Shown here: positions 2,453 through 38,696 of the stretch, in pieces | How positions within the stretch are numbered: the stretch's first letter is position 1 | Layout of the letters: every line of letters starts with the position of its first letter | Source: Pseudomonadota bacterium | GTDB lineage: Bacteria; Desulfobacterota; Desulfobulbia; Desulfobulbales; JAGXFP01 | NCBI GenBank assembly: GCA_018814305.1 | Contig: JAHJAA010000007.1 | Coordinates: 1 to 44,163 of the forward strand | Direction: 5' to 3' | Length of the DNA: 44,163 nt | Translations under genes and position numbers: made by a program | Notes under the pieces: generated by a model | What the model saw: the letters and a program-made list of their open reading frames with translations, nothing else | Databases searched by the model: none | Told to the model about the DNA's origin: nothing

Positions 2453-2505
2453 AATGACTACTACTCGTTACAGTGTTCAAGACAACCATAGAATTAAGGA
2501 TAGTT

Positions 2506-3396: not shown

Positions 3397-3410
3397 TTAT
3401 TAAGGAAAAA

Positions 3411-7117: not shown

Positions 7118-10377
<3,260 letters not shown>

Positions 10378-10431
10378 GGCCAAGCTCAATAAGCTTGACG
10401 CCAGAGGATTAAGAAAAAAAGGAAGAAATTA

Positions 10432-11928: not shown

Positions 11929-11956
11929 GGCCTTTAACTTTAGGTGGAGAGATTAA

Positions 11957-15047: not shown

Positions 15048-15060
15048 TCAGGAGGTAATT

Positions 15061-15270
15061 ATGGAAATGACGAGTGTGGATTCTAGTAATGTCGAGTCAG
15101 TCGGTTACGATGAGGATAGTTCAACACTACAGATTGAATTCAAAAATGGTTCGACGTACCAATACTTCGATGTTCCCGAAGATGTGTTTATCGGATTACG
15201 TGATGCAGATTCCGTTGGCAGATATTTAGCGGCAAGGATTAAGGGGACATATCGATACTCGAGAGTATAG
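15061..15270 (+). CDS. KTSC-domain small protein
   Basis: This 69-residue protein spans the whole KTSC domain (named from lysyl-tRNA synthetase C-termini): it begins with SSNVESVGYDEDSSTLQIEF and continues with YQYFDVPEDVF and a C-terminal GTYRYSRV. It has a strong AGGAGG ribosome binding site (15051-15056) and follows herA by 13 bases, so it should be translated from the same message. The biochemical role of isolated KTSC proteins is not known. The position suggests an accessory or sensor role in the SIR2-HerA module, but this is inference. Confidence 0.85.
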   Translation: MEMTSVDSSNVESVGYDEDSSTLQIEFKNGSTYQYFDVPEDVFIGLRDADSVGRYLAARIKGTYRYSRV

Positions 15271-15372
15271 ATAAATAAAAGAGGGAATAAACTAGAGTGA
15301 TCTCTCTTACTCTAGCCCTAGGTTTAATCTCTAGCTTTTTCCCGCAAGTAAATGAACCAAATAGAGAAGTTG

Positions 15373-15404
15373 ATACCCCGTCAGTTTGCTACGGGGGTAT
15401 TTTA
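15373..15404 (+). terminator. Rho-independent terminator after the SIR2-HerA-KTSC operon
   Basis: The arms ATACCCCGT (15373-15381) and ACGGGGGTAT (15391-15400) pair with one bulged base around a 9-base loop and are followed by TTT and an A-rich stretch. This separates the SIR2-HerA operon from the STAND operon starting at 15497. Confidence 0.65.
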
Positions 15405-15496
15405 AAAAATAATTATCAGGCGGCTTTAACTCGACTTTTCGCTGCTTACACATCAACGCATTAACCGGGCATTGTGCCTATCAAACGGAGTTATTA

Positions 15497-18214
15497 ATGT
15501 CAGATGCTTTTAGGCAGTCGGTAATCAGTACTCTCATAAACGAAGTTTCCCTACTCACTGGTGGGCAATTTGAGCAATTTGGTTACAGAGTGATGGAAAT
15601 TGTATTTCCAGCGCAGTGGGTCGAGCGTGGTACTACAGTCGAAGGTGCGCCGCGTGGATACACTGTTGACACCTCGACGAATGGTGCCGCGCTCGTTGCG
15701 GAAATGAGCTCAGAAAGTGATTATTTCCATGGCGATATGGGTAAGCCAACACGGGACTTGCACCACTCGATCATCTTGCACCCAGATGTGAAACGTATCT
15801 GGCTTCTATCGTCCCGAGAAGCAACGGCAGGTGAAACGACGAAATGCGCTAACTTGGAAACAGAGTTCATAAAAGAGCACAAGTTATTGACGCAAGTCGA
15901 GATACTAGATGCCCGAAAAATCGCTGTGCACATCTTCAACAACATAGAAACTGAACGATTTGTCAGCTCTTTAACTACTTATTTGCCGAGCCTCGGAAGA
16001 TTGGCAGACGAAAATGCGTTCAGCCACCGAATACCGATTTATTCTGGTTACCAGCAACGTCTGGAATTAGAGGACATTGTAATTGCTCGACTTACAGATT
16101 CCTCCTGTGTCGTCGTTAGTGGTATCAGTGGAATAGGAAAAAGCGCGCTCGTTGCACACGTTGCGGAGAGACTTCGTTCAGATTTCGATACGATCATCTG
16201 GTATGACGCCCGTAATCTAGGAAATGTTGCGGAACTCTCTGATGTTGACATACGGCGAATTGGCACCAGGCACAACATTACCAGTTTACTCCTTCGGCAC
16301 AAGTGCCTTCTCATTCTCGACGATGCAGTACTTTCTAAGGAAAATATCGCCCAAATAGATTGTGGGGAATCAAAAGTGATTCTCACGTGCCAAGTAAGTT
16401 CTGAGCCAAATTCCATCGAGGTTGGTGAGTTTGATTTCGATTCGGCACGGATTTTATTGCAAGCAGGTGTAACAATTCCTTGCTCAGACGAGGTCTTCCA
16501 ACGCGTGTTTTCGAGCATTGGAGGCTATCCCCTTCTTTTAAGTGCGTTAAACAGGGTAGCCCAAGATGATGGGTGGGAGGCCGTGGATGATTGCTGTGAA
16601 GATGCTACAAGTTCAATTGAAGATGAGCGCCACAACAAGATTTGTCAGAGGATTCTCATGCGGCACCGGGAGTCGTTGGCTTTAGAGTTAGAGTTCGTCA
16701 ATTGGTGTGGCGGCTCGTGTTTCGACTCCGAACTAGCTGCCGTATGCGTTTCACCCAGGGCCGTGAAGAATCTCCAAAAGCGTGCGTTCTTAGCTGCGAC
16801 AACATCTGGCGACATCCGAGTACATGACGTTGTTTATAAGTCTATTCTCGCTGTTATTGATGTGACTGAACATCGTGATACAACCTTTCGTGACAAGCTG
16901 GACAATTTCATCTGCTCGGAATGCGAAAAGGAGAGGCATGTCCTTAGTCGCATCGTGACCCTCCATGCACCGTTAGTCAAAAGACTGGTGGGCGTGGATT
17001 CACGTCCGTCATTTATTTACTCATTGGCTCTCGCCAGGATGAATGACACACCGGTCGACCTACTAGGCGACCCAGTCGCCGCCGCAAAATCTTTAGTTGC
17101 ACTTGATCACTGGGATGGGCGGGAAATCGAAATCCGCGCTGTCATTGAGGTCGTCGAAGCCCTGTATACACTAACATCTGCCAACTACGGGGTGGAGGCT
17201 GCCAAAGCATCTTTAAATGAGAATATCGCAGCATTGGATCTTCTTCTCCACAGCCCTTTGGCTAAAAATGAGTTACTGAGGGATCTCAAACATCATTATG
17301 CCAAAATGCTAATTCGCCTCGAATATTTTTCAGAGGCTGAGACTGAATTTCGATCTATACTCTCCGAATACCCAATGTTTGCTGCTGGGAGGCTTCAGCT
17401 CGCCAGACTTCTAGGGCAACGGGATAAAAAGACCGCTCTTGACGAGTGTGGGGAAATCATCAACCAACACCTATGTAAACAAGGGACAGTATCCCCTCCT
17501 ATTCTACTCGAAACTCTGCGATTATTGGCCAACTTTGGTTCGGCTAACGACGTGAGGCCGCATGAAGGACTAATAATTTCATGCCTAGAGGATGCCCGTG
17601 AATTCGATAAGGCGCTAACATTACGCCTCATTGCCTCAGTTGCCCAAAAGACTTGGTACAAGATGCCGAAGCTCGTATCGCGCATGTTCGATGCGATAGA
17701 GTGGCGTGATGCTGTCCCGGCATCGGATTCCGAACGTTTTGATTGGGCACAGGCCCACAAAGCGGCGGCCAAGGTGGCTGCCGTCGGTGATTCGCGAAGA
17801 CGTGATTTTCTCATAGCAGCTGACGATACGTACAAGAGCATCGTGGCTCCACGTAGCTATAACAGGGTACAGCATGCAGAGGCGCTCATTTTACTCAACA
17901 GATTTGAAGAGGCGAACTCTGTCCTAGATCTTGTGCCTGATAGTGATCATGAATCATTCTGGTGGCATCGGAAGTCCCAAGCTCTGTTTGGATTACAGCA
18001 CAATGATACTGCGCTGGAGGCAATCAACAATGCGCTACAGCTTTTGAAGGGTAATGCTTACAAGGCTGCTTTTCTTAAAGTCCGCCATGATATCAGAGAG
18101 TCCCTATCTGATGCAGGAGCAAGAGATGATCTCTTGGCAGCGATCAATACCCTGCCTGAAGGTGATAAATATAGAAAGGAGTTAGAGTCAAAGCTGGCGG
18201 ATTTGACCAAATGA
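15497..18214 (+). CDS. STAND-type NTPase with restriction-like N-terminus and TPR-like C-terminus
   Basis: The 905-residue protein has three parts. Residues about 1-170 look like a degenerate restriction-fold domain (RGYTVDTSTNGAALVAEMSS, then GKPTRDLHH and a DARKIA segment). Residues about 195-450 are a STAND/NB-ARC-like NTPase with Walker A VSGISGIGKSALVAHV near residue 205 and Walker B CLLILDDAV near residue 270. The rest is helical and TPR-like (AETEFRSILSEYPMFAAGRLQLARLL), the usual ligand-sensing arm. This resembles Avs-type or other NLR-like immune proteins, though I cannot assign a named family. The start is supported by GGAG at 15486-15489. The TGA stop overlaps the next ATG (ATGA at 18211). 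Confidence 0.75.
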   Translation: MSDAFRQSVISTLINEVSLLTGGQFEQFGYRVMEIVFPAQWVERGTTVEGAPRGYTVDTSTNGAALVAEMSSESDYFHGDMGKPTRDLHHSIILHPDVKRIWLLSSREATAGETTKCANLETEFIKEHKLLTQVEILDARKIAVHIFNNIETERFVSSLTTYLPSLGRLADENAFSHRIPIYSGYQQRLELEDIVIARLTDSSCVVVSGISGIGKSALVAHVAERLRSDFDTIIWYDARNLGNVAELSDVDIRRIGTRHNITSLLLRHKCLLILDDAVLSKENIAQIDCGESKVILTCQVSSEPNSIEVGEFDFDSARILLQAGVTIPCSDEVFQRVFSSIGGYPLLLSALNRVAQDDGWEAVDDCCEDATSSIEDERHNKICQRILMRHRESLALELEFVNWCGGSCFDSELAAVCVSPRAVKNLQKRAFLAATTSGDIRVHDVVYKSILAVIDVTEHRDTTFRDKLDNFICSECEKERHVLSRIVTLHAPLVKRLVGVDSRPSFIYSLALARMNDTPVDLLGDPVAAAKSLVALDHWDGREIEIRAVIEVVEALYTLTSANYGVEAAKASLNENIAALDLLLHSPLAKNELLRDLKHHYAKMLIRLEYFSEAETEFRSILSEYPMFAAGRLQLARLLGQRDKKTALDECGEIINQHLCKQGTVSPPILLETLRLLANFGSANDVRPHEGLIISCLEDAREFDKALTLRLIASVAQKTWYKMPKLVSRMFDAIEWRDAVPASDSERFDWAQAHKAAAKVAAVGDSRRRDFLIAADDTYKSIVAPRSYNRVQHAEALILLNRFEEANSVLDLVPDSDHESFWWHRKSQALFGLQHNDTALEAINNALQLLKGNAYKAAFLKVRHDIRESLSDAGARDDLLAAINTLPEGDKYRKELESKLADLTK

Positions 18215-18801
18215 ACCAAGACAAAATCTTAAAAAAACTCATTACAAAATATTGTGGCAAACAAAAGGCTGATGAGTATTTTTCTTTTAAATTGGAAGGT
18301 AAGCAAGTCCTCATTGATACTGCTCAAGAGTTATTAGAAAGTCTACCACCATCTTTTGGTGCCTGTGCTCTAATAAGTGCGACGTGGGCAGGTTTTTTAC
18401 GGGATAAATATTCTGTCCCTGCAATTGTCGTAGCAGGTGATCTTGAAATAGAAGATAAAAAGATTTTTAAATGTCGGAAAAATCTCCCTGTACCCAAAAA
18501 AACCGGAAAACTCGTGCTCGGCAAATGGGATGGCCATTGTTGGATAGAGGTTGATGGAATAATTGGTGATTTATCCATTTTTAGAACAGCATACGCGGTC
18601 AAGGGCCCAAGTATACTTAAGGAATATATCGTTTCAAATTTTGGTATAGGCCGTGGCGCATTCCTGTGTCCAAAAAACGAATTTCCAACAGACTTAAAAT
18701 ATGTCCCTAAATACGTGCTAGATCGCAAGCAAATTAATGGCTTGATATCAGGCATGATGTATCAACTTGAACATGGGAACAACATCGGACAAGTTAAATG
18801 A
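18211..18801 (+). CDS. Putative transglutaminase/papain-like cysteine peptidase fold protein
   Basis: I do not recognise a named family. The 196-residue protein shows what looks like a Cys-His-Asp triad in the order used by transglutaminase-like and NlpC/P60-type peptidases: Cys52 in FGACALISATW, His109 in WDGHCWIEVDG and Asp120 in IIGDLSIFRT. The GHCWIEV-GIIGDLS layout is typical of the two strands carrying the His and Asp in that fold. There is no signal peptide or membrane segment, so it should act in the cytoplasm. It overlaps both neighbours by 4 bases. Proteases controlled by STAND NTPases are known in bacterial immunity, so an effector role is plausible. Confidence 0.6.
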   Translation: MNQDKILKKLITKYCGKQKADEYFSFKLEGKQVLIDTAQELLESLPPSFGACALISATWAGFLRDKYSVPAIVVAGDLEIEDKKIFKCRKNLPVPKKTGKLVLGKWDGHCWIEVDGIIGDLSIFRTAYAVKGPSILKEYIVSNFGIGRGAFLCPKNEFPTDLKYVPKYVLDRKQINGLISGMMYQLEHGNNIGQVK

Positions 18802-19496
18802 ATATATATTCTGAAGTCGTTGATGGCTTAGCGGGATGGCTAAACTTTGAGATGCGCGCAAAGAGAGACAACCTTTTTTCGGAAGCATATCTCGCTAACC
18901 CACTAGGGCAACTATTGAATGCGTCCTTCCCAGGGCGTATCTTAACAGAAATGCAGCATCCCATTCTTGCAGATAAAATGCAAGGTCCTGGTAAGAGACC
19001 TCAGGTAGATTTTGTTGTCACAGGCAATTATGGTAAATGGGATCTTGCTATTGAGACTAAATGGATCTCAAAATCGCCTACTTTGCATCAGGACATAATT
19101 AAAGATGTAATTAGACTGGATCTGCTGGTCCCAACTTACGCTCGTGAAGGGATTTTAATAGTCGCTGGAAACAAAAGAGATTTCTCCGATTTTTTTGAAG
19201 ACAATAAATTCAAAAAACACCCTGATCAGCCAAGCAGTAATCCTCTTTTACCAATTGAGAACCATACCGCCGGTTCAGTACGATTCTTGCCTACATCGGC
19301 ATTCCGGAAAGATATATATAATAAAGCACTCAAACCATTCCGGGGAGTTGAAATTTCCCAAATTATCCGCCTTCAAAGAAGTGGCCCATTTCCAAGAAAC
19401 CCGAATAACGAGCATTATGAAGTTTATTTATGGAAAATCAGAACAGACCGATTAAAGGAGGCTTCTTTCCTCCCAGAAGAACATTTTGACATTTAA
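18798..19496 (+). CDS. Putative PD-(D/E)XK-like nuclease, third gene of the STAND operon
   Basis: The 232-residue protein is not from a family I can name. Residues 66-90 read KRPQVDFVV ... WDLAIETKW, which gives the Asp71 ... Glu86-x-Lys88 pattern of a restriction-endonuclease-fold active site, preceded by a possible helix-strand Glu51. The rest is a mix of charged helices, with a proline-rich end. Its start overlaps the preceding stop (ATGA at 18798), so it belongs to the same operon. A nuclease effector or a partner of the degenerate nuclease domain of the STAND protein is the simplest idea. The function is inferred from motifs only. Confidence 0.6.
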   Translation: MNIYSEVVDGLAGWLNFEMRAKRDNLFSEAYLANPLGQLLNASFPGRILTEMQHPILADKMQGPGKRPQVDFVVTGNYGKWDLAIETKWISKSPTLHQDIIKDVIRLDLLVPTYAREGILIVAGNKRDFSDFFEDNKFKKHPDQPSSNPLLPIENHTAGSVRFLPTSAFRKDIYNKALKPFRGVEISQIIRLQRSGPFPRNPNNEHYEVYLWKIRTDRLKEASFLPEEHFDI

Positions 19497-19957: not shown

Positions 19958-19985
19958 TTGACAAGCAGAAAATTTTCAGTATAAT
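19958..19985 (+). promoter_or_regulatory. Strong sigma-70-type promoter reading into the TGA-rich block
   Basis: TTGACA at 19958-19963 and TATAAT at 19980-19985 are both perfect consensus hexamers, 16 bases apart. The expected start point is near 19992, directly at the tRNA T-arm-like fragment and about 40 bases before the first ORF of the block. Confidence 0.7.
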
Positions 19986-19990
19986 TTATT

Positions 19991-20009
19991 CACGGTTCGA
20001 ATCCGGGCC
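19991..20009 (+). other. tRNA T-arm-like fragment
   Basis: CGGTTCGAATCCGG contains the invariant TTCGAAT loop of a tRNA T-arm with a short stem (CGG/CCG). No D-arm, anticodon arm or matching acceptor strand can be found upstream, where the promoter lies instead. It is probably the 3' end of a tRNA gene left as an attachment-site remnant. A deleted tRNA gene directly behind a tRNA-like promoter is the alternative. Confidence 0.4.
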
Positions 20010-20034
20010 AATTATTTTCTAACCAAATCTCCTC

Positions 20035-20292
20035 ATGCCTACACCTACCTACATGACATCGATTCAGGTCGATGTATTCGAGTCCTGAAACAATTCGAAA
20101 ACACCGGGATCTTCGGCTGCTTCCACCCATCGCACCAAGGTCTATTACGACCTTGTTGAACTGACTCCCGATCAAATCAAAGTAATTGTAAAAATGACAG
20201 CAATCTTGAGTCGTGGAATTTACGACTCCCACCTGCCCCAGTCTCTGGAAGAACAGGTAACCGGAGAGTTGAATATAAATTGCCCTGAGTAA
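20035..20292 (+). CDS. Small protein, unknown; one in-frame TGA (read as Gly)
   Basis: Read with TGA as glycine, this frame runs 85 residues from ATG 20035 to TAA 20290-20292, with one TGA at 20086-20088 in an ESGNNSKTPG context. The later half (KVYYDLVELTPDQIKVIVKM and SLEEQVTGELN) looks like ordinary helical protein. In the standard code it would be cut to 17 residues. It lies just behind the strong promoter at 19958 and is followed by the hairpin at 20313. No Shine-Dalgarno sequence is visible. I know no family. It is the weakest of the four TGA-containing genes because only one TGA is present. Confidence 0.45.
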
Positions 20293-20312
20293 TGGCCTTC
20301 AGTAGCCAAAAC

Positions 20313-20335
20313 TGGCTGTTTCTCAGAAACAGCCA
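20313..20335. terminator. Perfect 10-bp hairpin, possible terminator
   Basis: TGGCTGTTTC (20313-20322) and GAAACAGCCA (20326-20335) form a perfect stem with a 3-base loop, 20 bases after the TAA at 20290. There is no T-run on the plus strand, but a short one follows on the minus strand. It may act as a transcription or processing signal. Confidence 0.4.
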
Positions 20336-20382
20336 TAAAACAACGAAAACCAAAACAAAAATACCCCTTAACACCATATAGT

Positions 20383-21756
20383 ATGAAGAGATCAAAAACA
20401 GAATCTATACTGACCCACCTGACTCATTTTCTTAAATGGCTCTATCGCCCATTTCAGATTTATTCTCTGCACACCTTTTATTTCAGGATGAGAAAAATAC
20501 TCCCGCTCCACGCCTTTAAAAGACACGGATATATCGTCGCCTCTTCCGGTAGTGGGAAGAGTGAATTCATAAAAGTTCTGCTGTATCGTGAACTGATCAA
20601 AAAGAACCCGAATAACAGCATTATTGTCATTGACCCACATTGAGACCTTGTAGAAGAAATAGCCAGACTCAAGCCGATGAAAAAACGTCGGATTTCCAAC
20701 CGCGTGGTCTATATCGATCCTTCTCTTCACCCAGGATACAGCCCCAGCATCAATCCCTTTGAAATTGATGACCGTAGTGAGAAAACCATCGCCCTGATGA
20801 CTCAGGAACTGAGGAGCATTTTCGAAATTCTGCTGCAGGATGCCAGTACAACAAACCAGATGAGCGCGATTTTGAGCCCGTGCATCGCCACCCTGCTCAG
20901 AAGGCCAGACAGCGATTTTTCCGATCTGCAAAGGTTTATGGATGACAACAACAATCAGGACTTGGTGGCACTTGGTGCACAGTCTCCCAATCCCCAGCAT
21001 CGTACCCTGTTCCAGACTCGCTTCTACAACAAAATGTATTCCGCGACAAAGCACGGACTTTATACCCGTATGCAGGTGCTGCTGAACGAACCTGTTTTTC
21101 AGAACCTGATATCCAATACGACAAGCCTAAAATTGAAGCAGCTCATTAACCAGAAGAAAATCATCCTGTTCAAACTGTCCTTGTGAGAGTCTGGAAGTGA
21201 CAGTGTGCAATCCTACGGAAGATTTATTGTGGGCCTCCTGCGCATTTTGGCATTCCAGAGGAGCAGTATTCCCAAGGAATTCAGGGTGCCGACCTACCTG
21301 TTTATCGATGAATTCCAAAACTTTATTTCAGCTGATATTGAAAAAGCGCTTACCCAACTGAGGAAATATGGCCTTCATTTGGTTTTGGCCAATCAGTATA
21401 TCGGCCAGGTGGCATCCCCTGCATTGCAAAAAGCCCTCTTCTCAGCTGGGATCCTGATAGCCGGGAAAAATGAACGTAACAGCTTACGTGCGATCAGCAG
21501 GGAACTGGATGTCCCGATTCCTCTTTTGATGAACATGTCCGTAGGAGAATTCCTGGTGAGCACTCACCACCGGAAGCCATTGCTGATCAAGTCTCCCAAG
21601 CTGCTGCTGGATGGAAATTATTGTGTATCAAGCGAGGAGTGGCAAGAAATCAAAGCCAGAAATCTCCGCCAGTACTACTGTAAGCTCAGACCTTGGGTAA
21701 GCAACACCAGTAACTCCAGGGTCAGTAGATGACAAAAACCTGATACACTCCCCTAA
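20383..21756 (+). CDS. TraG/TraD/HerA-type conjugation ATPase with three in-frame TGA codons (UGA = Gly)
   Basis: In the standard code this is broken into three ORFs (20383-20643, 20677-21186, 21205-21732), all in one frame and separated only by TGA. Read with TGA as glycine it gives 457 residues ending at TAA 21754-21756. TGAs are at 20641, 21184 and 21730. Motifs run on across them: Walker A VASSGSGKSEF near residue 55, then VIDPH-TGA-DLVEEI, where the family has DPHGDL or DPKGDL, then FKLSL-TGA-ESGSDS, then Walker B-like TYLFIDEFQNF near residue 307 and LVLANQYIGQ. No frameshift and no internal TAA or TAG occur. It would be a DNA-transfer ATPase. No Shine-Dalgarno sequence precedes the ATG. 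Confidence 0.8.
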
Positions 21757-21791
21757 TCGCCTAACCCACCTATTTCTTAACCCTTCGTCCT

Positions 21792-22625
21792 ATGAATATC
21801 TCAGTCAACCAATTTATTATTTTGATGGCCCTGGCCAGATTCAAATTTCTGACATCTTCCCAGTTGAAACTCATATTGGGTTGCAAAAGCCTGAGTACGG
21901 TTAACAGTGCACTTCGTGGATTGAAATGATTTCGTTACCCATTGGTAAAAAGTATGGATTTCTGAGTTGCCCCTTGAAAATGAAGACTGGCACCAATCCA
22001 TCACTTGACCAAGACATGAAAGGATCAATTGCTGGAAGGAACCTCACTCACCCTGGAGGAGATTCAAAAGCCATCCTGAAGCGCCGTATTTTTCCAGAAT
22101 GATTATTTTCATCGTGTTTCCACTGTCCGGTTTGCCGTTTTGTTTCAGAAATGGCTGGCCGTCAATAATTATGGATTGGTTGAAATGGACCTCTACTTTA
22201 ACAGCAGGTACTTTGACGGCCAATTTCATACAGCCACCAGAACCTGGTCGCATGGCCGCGTTGTCGAGCCTGATGCCACCGCTATTTACAGCGCCAAAGG
22301 CGTCTACCACACCATTTTGTTCGAGCAACATAACGGTAGAGATGCCAAACGTGCACTGAAACAAATTAAGCAACACTGCCTTTGATTACTGAACGAGCGA
22401 TATCTGGTCCGTTTCACCCAGCGTGACGATATCCGCATCATTTATCTTTTTGAGAACCATCGCTGCATGAATGTGGTTATGAAATGAATGATGGTGAATC
22501 CGTTGATGAGATCTATTCAACACCTTTTCCTGTTCAAAGATGAAGATGAACTGCAACTGAGCTTTGCAGACGGATGGCATCATCCCGATGAAACAATCGT
22601 TTCATTCCTGCCCGGAGCCAAATAG
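21792..22625 (+). CDS. Replication-relaxation family protein with eight in-frame TGA codons (UGA = Gly)
   Basis: No standard-code ORF longer than about 90 codons exists here, yet one frame from ATG 21792 to TAG 22623-22625 gives a coherent 277-residue protein if TGA is glycine. TGAs lie at 21927, 21963, 21975, 21981, 22017, 22077, 22383 and 22485. The N-terminus is a winged helix (ALARFKFLTSSQLKLILG, then VNSALRGLK), followed by HHLTKT-TGA-KDQLLEG, where the family has a conserved LTxxG. The NDYFHRVSTVRFAV, VEPDATAIYSAKG and HTILFEQHNGRDAKRA segments match the C-terminal domain of replication-relaxation proteins of mobilisable elements. There is no internal TAA or TAG and no frameshift. Confidence 0.8.
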
Positions 22626-22713
22626 TAACCTATCCCCTCCGATTTAGCTGGACCCCGCTGTTCTCGACATAGGGTCGAGGATGGCGCCTGTCCAACTAAA
22701 AAGGAGTCTACTG

Positions 22714-23040
22714 ATGAGTACATTGCTTACAAAAGAATTGGTCAAAATGTTTGAGAATTACCCTCTCTATGCTCAGGACGGTGAGTCAGATCCTTTGGTG
22801 GTCGCCAAATTGTTTGATGCATATGGTTCGGGCACCTGGTATCTGACCGAATATAACCCGGCAGAACAGGTTGCGTTTGGCTATGTCACAGGCTTGGCGT
22901 ATGACGAATGGGGCTATGTCTCACTGAAAGAGCTCGAGGAAATTCGACATCCATTCTTTAAGGTAAACCGTATCGAACGAGACCTCTATTTTGTTCAACG
23001 GCGTTTCTCTGCACTCGGTCTCAAGGAGGCCACTCGGTAG
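22714..23040 (+). CDS. DUF2958 domain protein
   Basis: I chose ATG 22714 because AAGGAG lies at 22701-22706, giving 108 residues that end with TAG. It matches the DUF2958 family of small plasmid and integrative-element proteins: NYPLYAQDGESDPLVVAKLFDAYGSGTWYLTEYNP, then FGYVTGLAYDEWGYVSLKEL and the IERDLYF end (segments of one continuous stretch). It contains no TGA at all, so it is compatible with either code, and its stop is TAG. It is the only gene of the block with a clear Shine-Dalgarno sequence. The function of the family is unknown. A strong hairpin follows the stop. Confidence 0.8.
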   Translation: MSTLLTKELVKMFENYPLYAQDGESDPLVVAKLFDAYGSGTWYLTEYNPAEQVAFGYVTGLAYDEWGYVSLKELEEIRHPFFKVNRIERDLYFVQRRFSALGLKEATR

Positions 23041-23047
23041 AGAGGAT

Positions 23048-23074
23048 ATCAGCCAGGGAAACCTGGCTGATTTT
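23048..23074 (+). terminator. Terminator-like hairpin after the DUF2958 gene
   Basis: ATCAGCCAGG (23048-23057) and CCTGGCTGAT (23062-23071) form a perfect 10-bp stem with a GAAA tetraloop followed by TTT. It starts 7 bases after the TAG stop. Confidence 0.7.
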
Positions 23075-23456
23075 GCGAGTTTTGCATGTCGGATCTAACT
23101 CCTCAGCAAATCATCGCAATACGGAACTAATCGTCCATCGGTGCCTACGAAACGTCCCTGCCAACTTCCACGAAAAGACAACATCAATCCCCGGCAATTG
23201 TACGGTCCCCTTTCAAGGCAGTTTCTGCTTTTGGCTGCCGCCACAGCCGAACAGCTCTTGAAACCTCAACCATTAAAATTTTTCGGAAAAATATTCTCCT
23301 CCCCAAAAATCATCATTTTTTCTGGAAGACATTCATCCCAGTGTTTGCCATCAGCTCCCCTATTCCAATTTTTTTCAGATAAATTTGAGTGGCCTCGGAG
23401 CACCGTGGTCAATACCTGGGATTGATCGTCCCGATTTATTTTTTAATTTTTTGTTT
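23075..23456. other. Intergenic; no gene recognised
   Basis: Open frames at 23073-23261 and 23141-23425 overlap in different frames, lack ribosome binding sites and stay implausible whether or not TGA is read as Gly. The stretch is pyrimidine-rich toward its right end. It may contain the promoter of the next small gene, but I see no clear consensus. Confidence 0.4.
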
Positions 23457-23825
23457 ATGAACAATGAATTGCACAAATACGCTGAGTCGTATGAGGCTGA
23501 ACTCCTAGCCTATGAACAACTTGAACCAGTTGATTTTATCAAGGAGTACATCGATTCAAATTACACTGGTGACAGTGATGACGAGGATATGATGATCCAC
23601 GAATACTTCGATTGTTTAGAAGTTCAATATTACAAGAATGAACAATCAGATTATGACTATTTCGAAATCACTCTTGGCTACGGGTGACCGAATATCTATC
23701 TGAGTGTCAACAGCAGATGGAAAAGCGTTGAGTACATCATCGCCTGGTGAGGAGATAACTTTACAAAGGATCTCTCACACCTCTATGACACAGTCGTGCA
23801 GCTTTATGCATTGGACTGTTATTAA
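23457..23825 (+). CDS. Small acidic GGPN-motif plasmid protein with two in-frame TGA codons (UGA = Gly)
   Basis: In the standard code the frame stops after 76 residues. Read with TGA as glycine it runs 122 residues from ATG 23457 to TAA 23823-23825. The TGAs at 23685 and 23748 fall in FEITLGYG-TGA-PNIYL and YIIAW-TGA-GDNFT. Small proteins of conjugative elements with a C-terminal GGPN...W(G)GD pattern have glycine at both places. The N-terminus is acidic and helical (residues 1-50). The GTGATTA-free ending and the strong terminator 7 bases downstream support the extended reading. The function is unknown. Confidence 0.75.
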
Positions 23826-23832
23826 TATACTG

Positions 23833-23859
23833 CCCCGGCTTCGGCTGGGGTTTTTTTTT
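23833..23859 (+). terminator. Strong rho-independent terminator
   Basis: CCCCGGC (23833-23839), a TTCG tetraloop and GCTGGGG (23844-23850) are followed by nine T residues. It starts 7 bases after the TAA of the extended GGPN-motif protein. If TGA 23685 were the true stop, it would lie almost 150 bases away, so its place favours the recoded reading. Confidence 0.9.
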
Positions 23860-24111
23860 GTGATGTTAAAAATTGAACGTAAATGAGCTCCATTTCGCTC
23901 TTCATTTTATTCAGAGAGTGAGAAATTTCTTTTATCATTCTTGATGACCACACTTGAAAATCCCCCCAAATTTGATTTAATAGCTACTCAGGGACGATAC
24001 TGAGGCAAGATTGCATGTTCGTAACGAACTTGCGAACCTTGCCAGGGCCAGCCCTAGAACCCGGACTGCACCAGCCGAGCTGGGCAATCGAAAAAGGTCG
24101 GAGATTTTGAG
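23860..24111. other. Intergenic between recoded block and mobilisation operon
   Basis: This AT-rich stretch holds no gene that I can support. It contains the inverted repeats of the putative transfer origin at 24004-24043, and it marks the place where TGA usage changes from sense codon on the left to stop codon on the right. Confidence 0.5.
24004..24043 (+). other. oriT: Putative origin of transfer (oriT): nested inverted repeats
   Basis: Outer arms GGCAAG (24004-24009) and CTTGCC (24038-24043) enclose inner arms GCATGTTCG (24013-24021) and CGAACTTGC (24025-24033), which pair with one mismatch around TAA. It lies 68 bases upstream of the mobC-like gene and its relaxase. Nested repeats next to mobC are where MOBP origins are usually found. 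The nick site cannot be determined by eye. Confidence 0.5.
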
Positions 24112-24492
24112 ATGGATGACAACAGGTCTACCTATCAAAAGTCGTACCGTAAGCGGCATGCCGAAAGGCACCGACGGATCAGCATCTCTGTGTCCAATGC
24201 CGAGTACTCTGCCCTGGAACATATGGCACGCCGAGAGAACACCAAGGTTACTACCCTGGTCCGGGACTATGCCTTCGCCGGACTTTCCAGAACTCTTTCC
24301 GTGCCAAACGAACTGAAAGGCGAACTCCAGCAACTGAGTTTCCTGGTCCGGAATATTGCCAACAATGTGAATCAAGCCGCCCACTACTCGCATACACTCC
24401 GACAGGTAGCCGACGAAAATGGCTTGCTGCAACAGATCAAAAAACTGGAGGAAACTATTCATGCCTTCGTCCAAGAGAGGATGAAGCCATGA
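24112..24492 (+). CDS. mobC: MobC-like ribbon-helix-helix mobilisation accessory protein
   Basis: The 126-residue protein has a basic N-terminus and a ribbon-helix-helix-like segment (RRISISVSNAEYSALEHMA, residues about 20-40). The MobC signature LVRNIANNVNQAAH follows near residue 84, then a coiled C-terminus. MobC proteins bind oriT and help the relaxase open the DNA. GGAG at 24100-24103 precedes the ATG. Its TGA stop overlaps the relaxase ATG (ATGA, 24489-24492), so here TGA clearly acts as stop, unlike in the block just upstream. Confidence 0.8.
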   Translation: MDDNRSTYQKSYRKRHAERHRRISISVSNAEYSALEHMARRENTKVTTLVRDYAFAGLSRTLSVPNELKGELQQLSFLVRNIANNVNQAAHYSHTLRQVADENGLLQQIKKLEETIHAFVQERMKP

Positions 24493-25445
24493 TTATCAAA
24501 TCCATGTCCCGCAAGGAGTCCTCCTTCAATCAGCTGATCGACTACATGGGGTCTGGGAGAGCAGATGAGCGCTTCACTATCCTTCACAATATCTTTAGCC
24601 GGAACCCGGATCAAATCAAGGATGAATTTTACCAAAATGCTGGGTTCCTCCATCGCCGGACAGGCGGCAACTACATGTATCACGAAGTAATCTCTATAAC
24701 CCGGAGTGATCGACTGAGACTTGACGAGCAGAAGGAGAAATTACGGCAGATTGCAATGGATTACATCCGTGACCGTGCCGAAAATAACCTGGCCTATGGT
24801 GCCCTGCACGATGACCATGACAATAATATCCATTTTCATCTGATTATCAGTGCCAATGAGGTTTATTCCCGCAACCGACACCGACTCTCCAAGTATCGGT
24901 TTGACCAGATCAAGAAGGATTTGGAAAAACGAGTACTGGAATGCTATCCAGAGCTGCAGCAAAAAGAACTGATCAATCGCTCAGCAGGAGAACGCATATC
25001 AAACAAAGGTTCCGAGCTGAAGCGGCGAACCGGAAAAACCCCTCAACGTGATTTGGTCAGGGAAAAGGTCAAGACCATTTTTGAACAGGTTTCGACCAGA
25101 GAGGAGTTCCTTGAAAGTTTTGAGAAGGCTGGTTTGAATTTTTATATCCGGGGGAAAGCGCCTGGGGTGATCGATCTGCAGACCGGGCGGAAATTTCGCA
25201 TTAAAACACTAGGATTTCTCTCCCAGTATGAAAACATATCCCAGAAAATTGAAATGAACCTGATGCAGAAGTATGGACATACTGGCAATAAAAAAGCCCA
25301 AATGCATCAGGAAGAGAAATCGACAAAGAAGTGCTCGAAAATAACAAAAGAGGAACGAAACGACAAACGGAAGCAAGAGAAAATGGCCCGTCATCGAGCT
25401 CGTTCGCAGCAATCTGCAGGGGAAAAAGATGGCCACAAACGATGA
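24489..25445 (+). CDS. mobA: MOBP-type relaxase (MobA/VirD2-like)
   Basis: The 318-residue protein shows relaxase motifs: an N-terminal tyrosine in NQLIDYMGSG (residue about 19), the probable nicking residue, and the metal-binding histidine motif HDDHDNNIHFHLIIS near residue 108. The C-terminal third is very basic and Lys/Arg-rich. It would nick oriT and lead the strand through transfer. It overlaps the next gene by 17 bases. There is no large primase or helicase domain, so this is a small mobilisation relaxase. The TGA stop is genuine, because reading through would add only two residues before TAG and the overlap with virD4 is normal. Confidence 0.85.
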   Translation: MIIKSMSRKESSFNQLIDYMGSGRADERFTILHNIFSRNPDQIKDEFYQNAGFLHRRTGGNYMYHEVISITRSDRLRLDEQKEKLRQIAMDYIRDRAENNLAYGALHDDHDNNIHFHLIISANEVYSRNRHRLSKYRFDQIKKDLEKRVLECYPELQQKELINRSAGERISNKGSELKRRTGKTPQRDLVREKVKTIFEQVSTREEFLESFEKAGLNFYIRGKAPGVIDLQTGRKFRIKTLGFLSQYENISQKIEMNLMQKYGHTGNKKAQMHQEEKSTKKCSKITKEERNDKRKQEKMARHRARSQQSAGEKDGHKR

Positions 25446-26973
25446 TTGGAATAGTTGGTCAGGAAAAAAACGCCCCTCTTCAAAGAGCGTTCCACTTGGC
25501 GGATCACTGTTGTCAGATACCATGAAGGGAATCTTCAAAGGCGGCTTGTACCTTCTTGGCCGGAAACTCAACCGCTCAAAAGAAGGAGCAACCTTCGACT
25601 CAGAGTCTGATTATTCAAGCTATCTGAATTCGAGCAATAATGGACTGCTTCTGGATGGCGACAAACTGCGCCTTTCAGAAAGAGACAGCATACAGAATGT
25701 CTGTGTGATGGCCCGCATCGGAGCTGGAAAAACGTCTCGGTACATCATCCCGAATGTACTTGGTAGAGCCCGATCTAAATGCTCAATTGTAGTGAATGAC
25801 CCGAAGGGAGAAGTGTATCAAAACACCTCTGAGCATATGCGCAGGAGTGGATTCAAGGTTGTGGCCATCAACCCGGAAAATCTTGACGGAACCAGTCACT
25901 TCAATCCCCTTTCTGAAGCTAGGAGTGACATCGAGATAGAGCAGATTGCCGAAATTCTAGTGCGCAGTGGCACGCCAACGCATGGTGGGAAGGATGACTT
26001 CTGGATACAGGGATCTATTCGCTTTGCCAATCTATTCATCAAGTGCCTAAAGAATGCAGGTCGGACTAACCAAGGCTACTACAACCTCCATAACCTTTAT
26101 TACCTGTTCCAGAATTTTGGAGAAGATGGGAGGGACCTTGATAAATTCATGGTCAGGTATGCGAAAAATCCAGACGACCCACTCGACGATACCCTCTGGC
26201 ATGAGTGGCAGGGTGTGCTGACCGGCAACAAGGAGGGGGTTCAAAGTTTTATCCTGAATGGTATTACCGCTCTTAAAAGTTTATCCAACCGGAATCTTGC
26301 CGAGCTCACCTCTTATTCCGATATCAGCCTTGAGGATATTCGCAAGGAAAAGACTATCATATACATGATCACCCCTGCCCAGCATGCTGAATACTACAGT
26401 TTCCTCACCAGTCTGTTTTTTCGGAGTGTTTTCAATGCCTGCATGCGACAACTGCCAGACAAGCGGACGCTACCAGTCTACGTCCTCTACGATGAATTCG
26501 GGCACTCTACAATTCCCAATTTTGTTTCGACAGCGAACACCATCAGGGGCTACGGCGTTTCAATATCCATAATCCTGCAAAGCATAAGTCAGCTCAGGGC
26601 CAGGTATGGTGCGGAATACGCCAACTCGATCCAAGGTGGCTTTAATACCTATCTGACGTACGCAGGTGCCGATCCTGTGACTGCCGATTTTTTTGAGAAA
26701 GTTGTTGGTCGAGTTCGGCTGCGGCAAAAAGAAAATTACTTCGACCATGTAGAGCAATATCAAGAGTACAACCTGATGAATGCAGGAGAAGTCAGGACAA
26801 TAGATTCAGATGAAGCGCTGGTCGTTTCCGGCAACCGACAACCCATCAAGTTGAAAACTCTTCCCTATTTTCAAAATTGGTCCTTGATGCGCTGCGCGAA
26901 CAAAGGGCCAGCGCACCTGGCTCCCCCTGAATCGGCTGGTAAGAGGCTGCAGTATGTTGGGCTAGATAAATGA
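25429..26973 (+). CDS. virD4: VirD4/TraG-family type IV coupling protein
   Basis: The 514-residue protein has the coupling-protein core: Walker A ARIGAGKTSRYIIPNVL near residue 97, Walker B-like VVNDPKGEVYQ near residue 121, the VLYDEFGH motif near residue 350 and ILQSISQLRARYG near residue 383. It feeds the relaxase-DNA complex to a type IV channel. The usual N-terminal transmembrane anchor is missing. The two small membrane proteins directly downstream could supply it, which is an inference. No channel genes (VirB4, VirB6 and so on) are in the window, so the element is probably mobilisable rather than self-transmissible. Confidence 0.9.
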   Translation: MATNDDWNSWSGKKRPSSKSVPLGGSLLSDTMKGIFKGGLYLLGRKLNRSKEGATFDSESDYSSYLNSSNNGLLLDGDKLRLSERDSIQNVCVMARIGAGKTSRYIIPNVLGRARSKCSIVVNDPKGEVYQNTSEHMRRSGFKVVAINPENLDGTSHFNPLSEARSDIEIEQIAEILVRSGTPTHGGKDDFWIQGSIRFANLFIKCLKNAGRTNQGYYNLHNLYYLFQNFGEDGRDLDKFMVRYAKNPDDPLDDTLWHEWQGVLTGNKEGVQSFILNGITALKSLSNRNLAELTSYSDISLEDIRKEKTIIYMITPAQHAEYYSFLTSLFFRSVFNACMRQLPDKRTLPVYVLYDEFGHSTIPNFVSTANTIRGYGVSISIILQSISQLRARYGAEYANSIQGGFNTYLTYAGADPVTADFFEKVVGRVRLRQKENYFDHVEQYQEYNLMNAGEVRTIDSDEALVVSGNRQPIKLKTLPYFQNWSLMRCANKGPAHLAPPESAGKRLQYVGLDK

Positions 26974-29093: not shown

Positions 29094-29383
29094 AGGAACT
29101 GAAGTTTGTTTTAGAACACAGGACTTGAGATTTTGTGACCTTTACGCTTATTTTCTGAAACAAAAACCGACCTACTTAGTGTTTTGCTGGTCTAGCTGAA
29201 ATTACGCATAAAATACACTGAGAATACTCTAGCAAACATATTGCTTTACTACTATTTTTAAAAGTATACAGTAGTTGTCTGGGAGGCATATACACACTCT
29301 CTGGATGTAAAAACATACTATGTTACGTATAAAAAATGCAGAAATGCTCTGAAAATTTGAGCTGCTTAGGGGTTAAATCGAAA
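29094..29383. promoter_or_regulatory. AT-rich intergenic region with possible promoter
   Basis: No gene is visible here. TTGCTT at 29241-29246 and TATACA at 29265-29270, 18 bases apart, form a possible sigma-70 promoter for the three-gene system that follows. The base composition drops sharply from here to about 37 kb. Confidence 0.4.
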
Positions 29384-31825
29384 ATGAAAATTACTGATGG
29401 CTCAGGAGCAGACCTTACTTCAAACAAAGTTATTGATAGCCTTAGAAACAAAAAAATAAATATAAGACTTAAAACTGAGCATTCAATTTTAGGAATTAAG
29501 GGGCGCAAACAGTTAGCTAAGCTATTTGATGTTGTTAGCGAGTTTCTTCAAAATAAGAAAATAAATCCCGGTCATATCAAGGGGATGATTGAAATTGTGT
29601 TTGACCCTCATACAAAGAGTTTCGATCCTACAGTTGCCGCTTGGGGGATTCTCTTTTCAGGATTGTTGACTAAGGTTACTTTTAGGTTTTCCTTTCCTCA
29701 TGGAGACGTAGGTAAGAGCCCCGCTTTATATCGCCTGAGTCAAATACTTCTTCCACATCTTGTGTTGAAGAAAACCAATATTGAGTTGCGGTCCTATGAT
29801 ATAGGAAGACCTGGGAAGCTATTCTCTTGGCAAAATTTTCTGCGTCAACACCTTAGGGTCTCATCAGCATATCTGCCACCAATAAATCTTAACAATAAAA
29901 ATTATGTTTTTTACTTCGATAATAACGCAAGGGTTATCTGGAATAGTCTATTTAATGCAAGTGAAATTGCGAAGCTACTTGAAAAAAATGTTCCCCATAA
30001 ATCAACCTCTTCATCAAAAGACAAAGACATAGGTAAATTAATATTTAATATTATTCGTGAAAGATTGTTAGATGAATTGTTTGATAATGGTGAAGTTAAT
30101 TATGAAAGAATTGTAAATGTTTTACTAGTATTATATATGGCAAAAGCAATAACATTATTGAAATGTTGGATAGTAGTCCTTGATAAATATATTTCAGAAG
30201 GAAGTAATGCTCGACTATATCGTTATGTGTCAGGAAAGTCTAGCAAGGTAGGCTCACTAAAATATAACGAAAAACTAGAATACTATAAGAAAAACAAAGA
30301 AATACTAAGTCAAGTATTTGATAGTTCTCCTTTTTCAGTCTTTTTGTTTTCTTTTTTTCTAATCAACAATTACTCCCCAAACATGTATTCAGGTGATCCC
30401 GATCATCAACTTGACAAATTATTAAGTCAAATAAAGTCTATTCGAAACGTTTCTGTTGAAATCTATTCAGGGGTTTATGAGTTAGCTAAAAACATTGTTG
30501 AACATGTTCCAGAAGGAAATGGTTTTATAATTGGCAGGGTGTTTACAGCTGATTATTTAAAGGAAATTTACTCAGAGGAGTATGAGGATTTCAGGACCTA
30601 CATAAATTCATTTCAAGGTGATCAGCAATTTTTTAATTGTGTTGTCTTTGATAATGGGAAAAAGGGCATTTTGTATAAAACTCAAAGCAAAATTACCAAG
30701 CTAATACCGTCGGTTCAAAACAAGATTCTTAAAAAGCATTTATCAGATGAATTGGAGTGTTTTAATAATCAAACACTGGGGTTGCATGATTTTTTTGATT
30801 TGAAACATGTTCGAATGTTTCACCAGAAAATCAGGACCGCCGCGAGCCTCGGTCTGTTAATGCTAACAAATATGCTACGCATTAATAACGGTTTTTTATC
30901 TGTCAGTAGTGTTGATAAACATGGAACTCAGGGGATAGTTTACTATGGGAATGAAACAAAATCTCTACAAGGGGAATGGTGGGCAAATATTGGTACCCAA
31001 TTTGAATTATTTGTGCCCGTGTCCGCCAAAAAACCTCTTGAGTTACGAGCTCGACAGTATAGGCCTGTAGAGCCAATTATAGCAGGCGATGCATATGAGG
31101 GGCTTCTTAACTATTGTACCATAGATGAGAAAGATGAAATTCATAGCTCCTGTAATATTTGTGATCCTCATGTATTGTGTCTACATAATTCCTCAACTAC
31201 CAATGTTCATTGGGAATCATTTCATCTAGAGCATGCAAAACTATTTAACAAAATCAGTAGTTCTAAATGTAATGATCACCATAGAAAAGTTTTCACAATT
31301 AAGATCGAAGACAATAACAATTTTATAGATGCGAGCGACCTATTTCGTTTGTTAGCACAGCTGCAAATTGAGGTGGGATATAATGCTGTCGTAATTTATA
31401 ACCTCAAAGAAGAAACGTTACATACCTTTTTTGAGATATTCAGAATATATGGAGAACTTTTGGGAATGGATGTTTGGAGTGGACACCAAACTGCACTTTT
31501 TTATTATGTCCCACAGAGTTCGTCATCCCATAAAAAGTTTAGCGCTTTTTTAGTTACAGGTCGAACTTTAAGGGATTTAGTGAATTCAAACGAAACCATA
31601 CATTCCCATAGCCCCGGTGATCCAATATGGAATGATTTCTTTCCTATGACGCAGAAAAGTGGAGAAGATGAAGATCTTATGGAGAAACAAATTGACAATC
31701 CACTGGTTATTGATGGGAAATACTTGATTCCACTGGATTTGGTGCTAAAAGTTGATGGGCTTTCGTTGTTCGAATGGAATATGCGCACTAACCTCTTAGA
31801 TGAATTGTTAGGAGGTGACTTGTGA
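29384..31825 (+). CDS. Large GHKL-ATPase-like protein, first gene of an unnamed three-gene system
   Basis: The frame is open from ATG 29336, but I prefer ATG 29384 (MKITDGSGADL), as no ribosome binding site precedes the first, giving about 813 residues. I do not recognise a named family. The middle has features of a GHKL/histidine-kinase ATPase: an N-box-like VYELAKNIVEHVPEGNG near residue 370, a D-box-like VVFDNGKKGI near residue 420, and a G-box-like AASLGLLMLTNMLRINNGFLSVSS near residue 490. A cysteine-rich stretch (SSCNICDPHVLC) follows near residue 590, which could bind metal. No His phosphoacceptor domain is evident. The coding DNA is very AT-rich. The stop overlaps the next GTG. Confidence 0.65.
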   Translation: MKITDGSGADLTSNKVIDSLRNKKINIRLKTEHSILGIKGRKQLAKLFDVVSEFLQNKKINPGHIKGMIEIVFDPHTKSFDPTVAAWGILFSGLLTKVTFRFSFPHGDVGKSPALYRLSQILLPHLVLKKTNIELRSYDIGRPGKLFSWQNFLRQHLRVSSAYLPPINLNNKNYVFYFDNNARVIWNSLFNASEIAKLLEKNVPHKSTSSSKDKDIGKLIFNIIRERLLDELFDNGEVNYERIVNVLLVLYMAKAITLLKCWIVVLDKYISEGSNARLYRYVSGKSSKVGSLKYNEKLEYYKKNKEILSQVFDSSPFSVFLFSFFLINNYSPNMYSGDPDHQLDKLLSQIKSIRNVSVEIYSGVYELAKNIVEHVPEGNGFIIGRVFTADYLKEIYSEEYEDFRTYINSFQGDQQFFNCVVFDNGKKGILYKTQSKITKLIPSVQNKILKKHLSDELECFNNQTLGLHDFFDLKHVRMFHQKIRTAASLGLLMLTNMLRINNGFLSVSSVDKHGTQGIVYYGNETKSLQGEWWANIGTQFELFVPVSAKKPLELRARQYRPVEPIIAGDAYEGLLNYCTIDEKDEIHSSCNICDPHVLCLHNSSTTNVHWESFHLEHAKLFNKISSSKCNDHHRKVFTIKIEDNNNFIDASDLFRLLAQLQIEVGYNAVVIYNLKEETLHTFFEIFRIYGELLGMDVWSGHQTALFYYVPQSSSSHKKFSAFLVTGRTLRDLVNSNETIHSHSPGDPIWNDFFPMTQKSGEDEDLMEKQIDNPLVIDGKYLIPLDLVLKVDGLSLFEWNMRTNLLDELLGGDL

Positions 31826-34800
31826 ACCGAGGTTACGCCTTTCTTGGTGCTCATGTTAAGCTAGGAGCAAAAATCCACATAAGAGATTTTTTCTTTGGAC
31901 GACATATATTCCAAAATAGTTATTACTCCTTAAGGTGTGCTTTTTTAGTTTCAGGAAAAATTTGTGATCTAATAGAGGAAAAAAGAAAAAATGAGTATAT
32001 TGAAGTAAAAAGTATTTCAATACTAATGAACGGATCTTATGGCGAGTTGCTTGCAAGTAATGTATGCAGGTTTATCTCTGATAAAATAAAAAGCATTACA
32101 GCAAACTATATCATTTATGATGACCTGAGCAATTCATTTTTGGATCTTGATGAGTTAAATGAATATTATTGCGTGGTTGTTCCTATTGCTAGTACTTTGT
32201 CGACAGCAAACAAAATGATTCGGTGCGTTAACATAGAAAACAAAAAACAATCTAAATCACTTGGACATCCAATAAATGTAATAATTGCTGGTCATAAAGA
32301 ACTTTCGGATATAGTCGATGATAGTGGTTTAGTAACTGATACATTAGTCAAAAATTATTGGGAACGAATTGATGTTGACAAAAGAGTAATTAGTCTCTCT
32401 CGTGGCCGTGGAAAGCAGGAGTATTGCGTATACGTACCCAGTCAGTGGGAATCTGGAAAAAATTGCTCATTATGTTTTCCTGATGATCCACTTATCGAGA
32501 AGTTTCTATACCATGTTCATAAAGCCTCACTAGTCCCGCCCCTAATATTAGACTTTCCTGAATCAAAAAAAGATGGTGGAAAATTTTCAGTTGCTATTAA
32601 CTTTTTATTAGGAAGTAGTAGAAATAGAATATCCCCACCGGAAATATCCTCTCCGGAAAATCATGAATATCCCGCTATTCTGACAGATAAAGTACTTGAA
32701 TATAATCATTACACTCGTGGCTCTAATCATTTCATTTATTACATAGATACAGTTAAATTTTTTGAAGAGAACGTATCCCAAGTAGAAAAGTGGTTAGAAA
32801 GAATTTCTCCTACAGTATTTAAGAATATTTCTGCTGCTGAATCTGTGCTGTTAATTTCTCCGGCTCACCCAACTAATTCGGGTTTTGTTAATATTATTAA
32901 CAGGAAGTTATTCGGTAGTACTGCGGAAATTTATCACTGTGAAATTGGTGAGGAATACAAACAAGATATTGACCGCTTTTTTTCTCGAAGAATTAAAGAA
33001 AACACTAAAATATATTACGTTGATGATGCTATTTGTAGCGGGGGGACCTTTTCTAGATTGAGTCACCTTCTTGGATGGCAATCTTTTAATGGTAATAGCA
33101 GGAAGTTCGATGGGGCCTTTTTTCTTATTAATAGGCTTTCAGTTGAAGCGGATAGTTCAATTAGAAAAAGACTTGATGAGGTCCTCTTTTCTTTTGTCAT
33201 GCTTGAACTTCCTGTGATGTTAAGCTCCAACCGTAATTGTTATTTATGTAAAGCGCTGGAGGACGAAAAAGACATTCTCTCGTCAATAATTTTAGATGCT
33301 GTTGCAACTAGAAGTTACAAAAGAGTTAGTAAGCTGTCTCCTACAGATGCCTTATGTAAAGAGGATAAAACAAGTAGCAAACAATTCACAAAACACCGTA
33401 TGGGAGCTGAAAAACCAGGGCGCTATCTCGAAAGAATGCAGATGGAGCATGATTTAGTTAGATGCTTTTCTTTTGAACCCCATCAAAGTGAATTAAAAGA
33501 AATATTTTCTGAATATGAAAAATCACAGAATGGTGTTGATCGCATATTGCATATATTAAATAAAAATATCAGCACATTAGAGAATAGAATTAATCTTATT
33601 AAGATTATTACTCTTCCTCCTTTGTCCTCATATAATCTTATAAGGTCTGCGTCTCTTAAATGGGTCCTTTTTGAGTTCATTGAAACTGAGAAAATATTTT
33701 CAAAGCTTTTAGATGACTTTTTTTCTAGTGATGAACGTAATGTAGAGATTTATAGGCGCTTAATAAACCGTGTCAGGTATATAAAGTTTTTAATAAGGCG
33801 GCTGGCTCACCTCAGGTCAAATTTTCTTGTGAGGAAAAAGTTCTTCTCAATTTTAAACTCTTTCTATGAAAGAATCAGGAAGGTTTATGATTGTATTCGT
33901 GAAGTTAAGACATCTATAAGCTCTGGGAATATAAAGGATAATAAATCAAATAAACCGTCACAACAAACAGTTGGTCAAAGTCTTCAGAAATTGACAGTAG
34001 TAGAAATTGATTCTGTTATTAAGCTGCTTGATGAATTTAATGTTTTTCTTACATACTGCATAAAGTCGATTGTATTCAATGATGAGACCAAAGCTCTTCG
34101 GCTTGAAGAAACACTTGACTATGTTGAATCAGAACGTCATTTCCATCCAACATTTAAAACACTATGTAGAATGATCAGGATCGAGAATGTCAACCCTGTT
34201 CAAGATTTTTTAAAGCTCATTACTAGTAATAAAGTTCTGCTAGAAGAGAATTTTCTTTTTACAAAACGTAAAATTAATCAAGACAAAGATCGAATCAATT
34301 TTATATTAAAATCTGAAAGTTTTTTAAATCTACATAGGCTCGAACCATTTTATAAGTTTATCGGATTGGATATTAATCCTTTTGATACTGATACCCTGTT
34401 AGAGGATTTACTTATAAAAAGTCCTTTGTGGGACCAAAAAATTCTTCCTTTAATCCTATTGAAAGTTTTCCTTGCCAAAGGAACTAATGTTGAACCCGGT
34501 GAAGAATCACATCTGAAATATATTCTATCATTACTATGTCAAATTTTAGGCATGGCTGATGATACATCAGGTGCATTTTGTCTCTCACGCTATTCAACTA
34601 ATAAGCAGGATGGGGAAGGTTCTTTTTTGACAACAGTCACTGCCAATGTTTTCCCAAGTGAATTGGATGATAATTTTAAACCTAACCTTATTGAAGATCG
34701 ACAAGTAATACCTCGTCTTTTTTCTCATAAAATACTCGAGGGAAACATCCCACCTTTGTCGAAAATACCTTGGACGAATTATGAGGTACTTGCCGAAAGG

Positions 34801-38662: not shown

Positions 38663-38696
38663 TTCTGTTGTCCAGTTCATCAGTTTCGAAGAATTT

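Follow-up and report, generated by a model that had tools for sequence, protein, structure and literature searches.

A gene block with UGA at glycine positions adjoins standard-coded mobilization genes: a possible two-code mobilizable element

The window analysed here, a stretch of 44,163 nucleotides, carries on its plus strand a small gene for an acidic protein of the GGPN family (23457..23825), the frame of which opens with ATG at 23457 and is closed by TAA (23823-23825), giving 122 amino acids if two in-frame UGA codons, codon 77 (23685..23687, plus strand) and codon 98 (23748..23750, plus strand), are read as glycine. Translation in this way yields the motifs GYGGPN and AWGGDN, which the preliminary description of the locus had also obtained by recoding, and its distances hold on recounting. 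The intrinsic terminator (23832..23858, plus strand), an 8-bp hairpin with a TTCG loop at 23832-23851 and a T run, starts 144 nt past the first TGA (about 145 had been given for a stop at 23685) and 6 nt past the TAA (given as 7). The position of the terminator was presented there as evidence of recoding, independent of protein families; taken alone, it is weak. No family is assigned to the small protein in Pfam, PHROGs or NCBIfam, and Foldseek with a low-confidence model (pLDDT 62) gave no usable match. Searches with tblastn found none among plasmids (E 0.01 and 10) or phages (E 10), HMM searches of 257 genomes of the class and 395 of the phylum returned no further member of the family, and weak matches at three loci (L003, L013, and L014) were judged to be due to chance or unrelated.

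A second copy, L004, was the one relative found by exact peptide patterns across a genome collection of 84,980 species, and sits on a metagenomic contig of 3.1 kb that belongs to a Desulfuromusa MAG. The two proteins are 89% identical, both UGA codons stand at matching positions, and L004 also shares the TAA and the terminator, the pairing of which is preserved via G-U changes. Synonymous divergence between the two genes is about 1.2 per site, and the 45 codons past the first TGA differ by 15 synonymous and 4 amino-acid changes, an excess of synonymous change with a Fisher p of 1.3e-10. The Nei-Gojobori dN/dS is 0.058 ahead of the first TGA and 0.031 past it; between the two UGA codons it is 0 (6 synonymous and zero amino-acid changes), and past the second it is 0.047. 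Because most differences past the first UGA leave the amino acid unchanged (dN/dS about 0.03), translation covered the entire frame, and the ratios in all three segments mean that protein-level selection acted beyond both UGA codons, in two diverged elements, after the copies had separated. Neither a pseudogene nor a sequencing error would yield the observed dN/dS pattern.

Which residue occupies the two sites can be read from more distant relatives, reached by way of a self-written probe that led to a Finegoldia plasmid protein (L058), from there to phage proteins and finally to relatives on viral contigs. The alignment comprises 80 of 366 matching viral-contig loci and 5 others, with UGA entered as X. 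At the first site all 83 relatives that have a residue carry glycine, the remaining 2 being gaps, so that none of the 85 is a homologue ending at the equivalent of 23685, the observation by which, according to the preliminary description, recoding would fall. At the second site the same 85 sequences have W in 76, G in 4, Y in 3, F in 1 and a gap in 1, glycine being found in L149, the nearest outside relative, and in Finegoldia; these counts lean to G and W, because the probe carried G at both sites and the viral patterns contained GGPN and W[WG]. The results from L004, L149 and the coupling ATPase discussed below are independent of the G-bearing probe. With UGA read as a residue, the small protein has the GGPN motif followed by a W-x-[GS]-[DE] motif, and similarity extends past both UGA codons, to L149 with 41% over 78 amino acids (E 1e-16) and weakly to Finegoldia. 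L149 has UGA at the first site and an ordinary glycine codon at the second. It was first found by a pattern requiring UGA at the first site, and a pattern without this requirement, run on 2.9 million viral contigs, gave two matches, with L149 as the sole true relative. The other (L153) was set aside as chance, as were 7 of the 8 matches to the UGA-requiring pattern as chance frames, and a Photobacterium match (H1) lies inside an unrelated 454-aa ORF. The source record of L149, G636, is a phage of 59.6 kb with 26% GC that uses UGA as glycine throughout, with up to 211 UGA codons in a single ORF. Judged from these alignments, glycine fits best at both sites, and UGA is very probably read as glycine.

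The small protein shares with the unnamed GGPN family (e.g., Finegoldia WP_041250679.1 and Vibrio phage 142E35-1 CAH9015771.1) an acidic N-terminus and the core GGPN(I)(Y/W)...W(W/G)(G/S)(D/E), and differs from it in the strands of its beta-hairpin, which are two residues longer; otherwise this feature is seen only in L004 and in the code-25 phage relative L149. The Finegoldia relative likewise has no family in Pfam or PHROGs. A further member, at L063 828-1202, stands first among the annotated genes of Roseobacter phage CRP-227 (Autographiviridae), as gp1, and may be an early gene that enters the cell first, as may the plasmid copies close to oriT.

UGA as glycine is a property of a block of genes, larger than the single gene first noted, and the block of code-25 genes spans about 20,013-23,858. 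It includes a VirD4/HerA-type ATPase (T4CP2; 20383..21756, plus strand, 457 aa) with three in-frame UGA codons. Codon 87 is the glycine of DPHGD and is glycine in 5/5 readable alignments with Desulfuromonadia homologues, and codon 268 is the glycine of LSKG-type motifs and is glycine in 4/5, both counts being taken from five homologue alignments with a sixth homologue (L159) left out; two further loci (L166 and L167) are distant relatives. The next ORF (21792..22625, plus strand, 277 aa) holds eight UGA codons and no TAA or TAG ahead of its stop, and has a weakly Replic_Relax-like N-terminus (best Pfam match, E 0.098). A possible fourth member, tentatively assigned, is an ORF of 85 aa (20035..20292, plus strand) with one UGA and the same 5' signal as the others. 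Within the three block frames there is no TAA or TAG, where shuffles expect 16.6, 10.6 and 5.9. UGA makes up 13 of 42 glycine codons in the block against 0 of 724 in 30 standard ORFs (Fisher 5.6e-18), and comparison with the zero of the mobilization genes gives a Fisher value of 2e-6. The three genes have codon-usage scores near those of mobC and the relaxase, and in GC content and codon usage the block agrees with the window's standard genes, not with the 26% GC phage. A standard DUF2958 gene (22681..23040, plus strand; probable start at 22714 behind a Shine-Dalgarno (SD) site, no UGA, TAG stop) sits inside the block, downstream of the 8-UGA ORF and upstream of the small gene. No second recoded copy of T4CP2 or of the 8-UGA ORF was found, hence selection is demonstrated only for the small gene. 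For that gene, UGA as glycine is well supported by the dN/dS against L004, the family alignment and the two further UGA=Gly ORFs of the window. Immediately upstream of the block, a tRNA T-arm-like fragment (GGTTCGAATCCGGGCC, 19994-20010) has a 14-nt match to part of the host tRNA-Thr(GGT) locus and is perhaps the remnant of an attachment site; a 12/12 match to a sigma-70 promoter lies at 19958-19985, ahead of fragment and block.

The start signals also set the block apart from the standard genes. No SD match was found at the three block genes, at the tentative fourth or at the L004 copy, compared with 12 of the 21 standard starts listed for the window. Every block ORF has TAYYYYYTAAY 9-11 nt ahead of its ATG, namely TATTTTCTAAC (20013..20023, 11 nt ahead of ATG 20035), TACCCCTTAAC (20362..20372, 10 nt ahead of ATG 20383), TATTTCTTAAC (21771..21781, 10 nt ahead of ATG 21792) and TATTTTTTAAT (23437..23447, 9 nt ahead of ATG 23457), all on the plus strand, and the L004 counterpart is TATTTCTTAAT, 9 nt ahead of its ATG. 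These four places are the only plus-strand occurrences of the motif in the window; the minus strand has two matches with no ATG following. The shorter form YTAAY, 13-15 nt ahead of ATG in the block and scored wherever its TAA began between -16 and -12, is present in 4/4 block ORFs and in L004, compared with 0/25 standard ORFs and 11/866 plus-strand ATG, a test that is post hoc for the window, the motif having first been spotted by eye. A separate test used the phage record G636, where 38/46 ORFs have a TAA beginning at -15 to -12, against 387/1841 ATG, and 35/36 longer ORFs are without SD; the leader of L149 itself has TAA at -15, without the full YTAAY. The block thus carries the code-25-type signal (no SD, TAA about 13 nt ahead of ATG), as defined by a comparison standard of one phage record. 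It is possible that the TAA enrichment is the start signal of code-25 bacteria, and SR1/Absconditabacteria genomes are described in a survey as SD-scarce and without a conserved CCUCC (PMC10783764).

Beyond the terminator lies an oriT-like stretch (24006..24061, plus strand) that contains inverted repeats (GTTCGTAACGAAC; AGGGCCAGCCCT), is for the most part conserved in L004 and, as we infer, is an oriT. It is followed on the plus strand by three genes in the standard code, a MobC/NikA-like gene with an SD site (24112..24492), a MobA/VirD2-type relaxase (24489..25445) and a type IV coupling protein (25429..26973), each ending in UGA. In L004 the mobC stop is also UGA and the relaxase stop is TAA; the coupling-protein gene is truncated by the contig end. 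The mobilization proteins of the two copies are 66-80% identical, and in the parts compared they have zero in-frame UGA beside 49 glycine codons in the window and 47 in L004. Extension of the coupling protein at 25429 past its UGA was tried and gave no convincing continuation by eye, therefore this UGA is taken as a stop. Altogether 18 of the 30 standard ORFs of the window end in UGA, and UGA as a sense codon is not window-wide. The succession of GGPN gene, terminator, oriT-like stretch and mobC is identical in two independent, diverged assemblies; since L004 has the same junction of recoded and standard genes, the mosaic predates both copies and is hardly an assembly join.

The host genome, a MAG that is 96.7% complete, has 43 tRNA matches plus a tRNA-Sec (59 bits), which adjoins a selB-like ORF and bears the only UCA anticodon found in the host. 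The MAG yielded no tRNA-Gly(UCA), and the 44 kb window neither that tRNA nor a suppressor tRNA. The earlier proposal of read-through of two UGA codons in a GGPN protein therefore divides: both are well supported as sense glycine codons, and read-through in the present host is unsupported, given that the sole UCA anticodon belongs to tRNA-Sec, that UGA serves as a stop elsewhere in the window and that the genes lack SD. At 96.7% completeness a host suppressor tRNA could be missing from the assembly. With no decoder found and selenocysteine unfit, either the MAG lacks a tRNA-Gly(UCA) that the host has, or a different cell reads the block; we favour the second alternative. Known Absconditicoccaceae are described as episymbionts, and one of their phages carries a tRNA-Gly(TCA) (PMC13059738).

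On balance, the account that fits somewhat better than not is a code-25 block of the Absconditabacteria/Gracilibacteria type, with 5' signals like those of a UGA=Gly phage, inside a mobilizable element with standard-coded mobilization genes. That the element shuttles between a bacterium with the standard code and a patescibacterial partner that reads UGA as glycine has about an even chance of being right, and slightly less may be claimed for the fuller proposal, which we offer tentatively, of a two-code element. Here one DNA molecule would hold gene sets for two cell types that differ in their reading of UGA and in translation start, the code would act as a host-specific switch, and movement would take place across the contact between epibiont and host. 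Mobilization would carry the element between two cells in contact, a bacterium of standard code and an epibiont that reads UGA as glycine, and each cell type would fully read only its own gene set. From the small gene, a standard-code cell would make a 76-aa stump and a UGA=Gly cell the full acidic protein of 122 aa, where T4CP2 and the Replic_Relax-like protein could form a pair for onward transfer. Against the account count the standard DUF2958 gene within the block, the local GC content and codon usage of the block, the lack of a second recoded copy for T4CP2 and the 8-UGA ORF, the incomplete YTAAY of the L149 leader and the 96.7% completeness of the MAG. Nor did the element or any of its genes turn up in a cellular genome with UGA=Gly, the kinship searches having covered groups other than that one.

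It is unlikely, in our view, that the Desulfuromonadia host itself reads the block by means of a tRNA-Gly(UCA) that is unassembled or carried elsewhere and perhaps present only upon induction of the element; suppression limited to an induced element is an idea that has been proposed for code-switching phages. Purifying selection on the small gene demands translation somewhere, the codon usage of the block matches that of local genes, the sigma-70 promoter match lies just upstream, and a patescibacterial phage encodes tRNA-Gly(TCA) (PMC13059738), all of which this reading would accommodate. It has to contend with the absence of Gly(UCA) among the 43 tRNAs and tRNA-Sec of the host and from the 44 kb window, with the UGA stops of 18/30 standard ORFs, which would suffer read-through, and with block ORFs that have a different 5' signal and no SD. 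If the code-25 genes had instead been acquired from a UGA=Gly organism and were dead in the present host, the want of a known decoder would be expected, and for T4CP2 and the 8-UGA ORF a second copy that could reveal selection is missing. However, the small gene kept both UGA codons and a strongly conserved protein despite high synonymous change, beside the same mobilization genes, and two long frames free of TAA and TAG show no decay, so that we regard this as improbable.

Lower still stands a chimeric contig or misbinning that joined code-25 with code-11 sequence, which is very improbable even though both sources are draft assemblies and L004 is a short metagenomic contig, since two independent diverged assemblies have the same junction from the GGPN gene to mobC and DUF2958 is interleaved in the block. 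Two ways of decoding UGA other than as glycine can be given hardly any credence. For selenocysteine speak the host tRNA-Sec with its adjacent selB-like ORF and a hairpin 3' of the first UGA in both copies, a possible SECIS, but the hairpin form at the second UGA is not preserved, hairpin z-scores are only -1.5 to -0.2, the aligned relatives have glycine at site 1 and Trp, Gly, Tyr or Phe at site 2 and never Cys, and the neighbouring ORF has eight UGA codons. A low-level regulatory read-through by leaking near-cognate tRNA-Trp would suit the Trp that phage relatives mostly have at the second site (76 of 84), and the C that follows the first UGA, UGA then C being a weak stop context. It conflicts with glycine in 83/83 at the first site and with the ordinary look of the host tRNA-Trp(CCA), which has a 5-bp anticodon stem by eye, and a leak through eight UGA codons in one neighbouring ORF is implausible.

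The proposed two-code element resembles known systems in part. With code 25 of Absconditabacteria (SR1)/Gracilibacteria and their phages it shares UGA at conserved glycine codons, the lack of SD and the TAA-rich 5' signal, the last as seen in one code-25 phage record, and it differs from code-25 genomes in that only about 3-4 ORFs are recoded while the contig's other ORFs are standard. Code-switching phages, as Borges et al. are said to have reported in 2022, recode a subset of their genes and have their own suppressor tRNA, with UAG as Gln or UGA as Trp. The likeness consists in the recoding of a subset of one mobile element's genes in a standard-code host; here, in contrast, UGA stands for glycine, the element is mobilizable and not a phage, and no suppressor tRNA was found in 44 kb. 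Code-11-compatible phages of Gracilibacteria/Absconditabacteria avoid in-frame UGA, which makes all their genes legible in both codes (PMC10746230); they resemble the present element as mobile elements for which passage between hosts of the standard and the UGA=Gly code has been proposed, and differ from it in that the present element divides its genes between two codes and two start signals. The titles and abstract openings of the papers found by literature searches gave no account of an element that does so. Different genetic codes are usually viewed as a barrier to gene exchange, and if the two-code proposal is true, this barrier would be usable: a gene could travel in silence in one host and become active only in a different one. 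The signature of in-frame UGA, no SD and a YTAAY leader could then reveal DNA exchange of patescibacterial epibionts with their hosts, and could point from UGA=Gly bacteria to partners hitherto unknown, for example Desulfuromonadia.

The rest of the window includes a defence island at 693-19496 with AbiEi/AbiEii, a type I restriction-modification system, a SIR2-HerA pair and an NB-ARC-type ATPase. Two overlapping large ORFs, 29336-31825 (829 aa) and 31822-35793 (1323 aa), lie in a stretch of 34-36% GC and have no Pfam match above the curated cut-off. A 300-nt direct repeat (38685-38984 and 42324-42623, 86% identical) is found near a tRNA-Met (38523) and an ISL3 transposase (37138).
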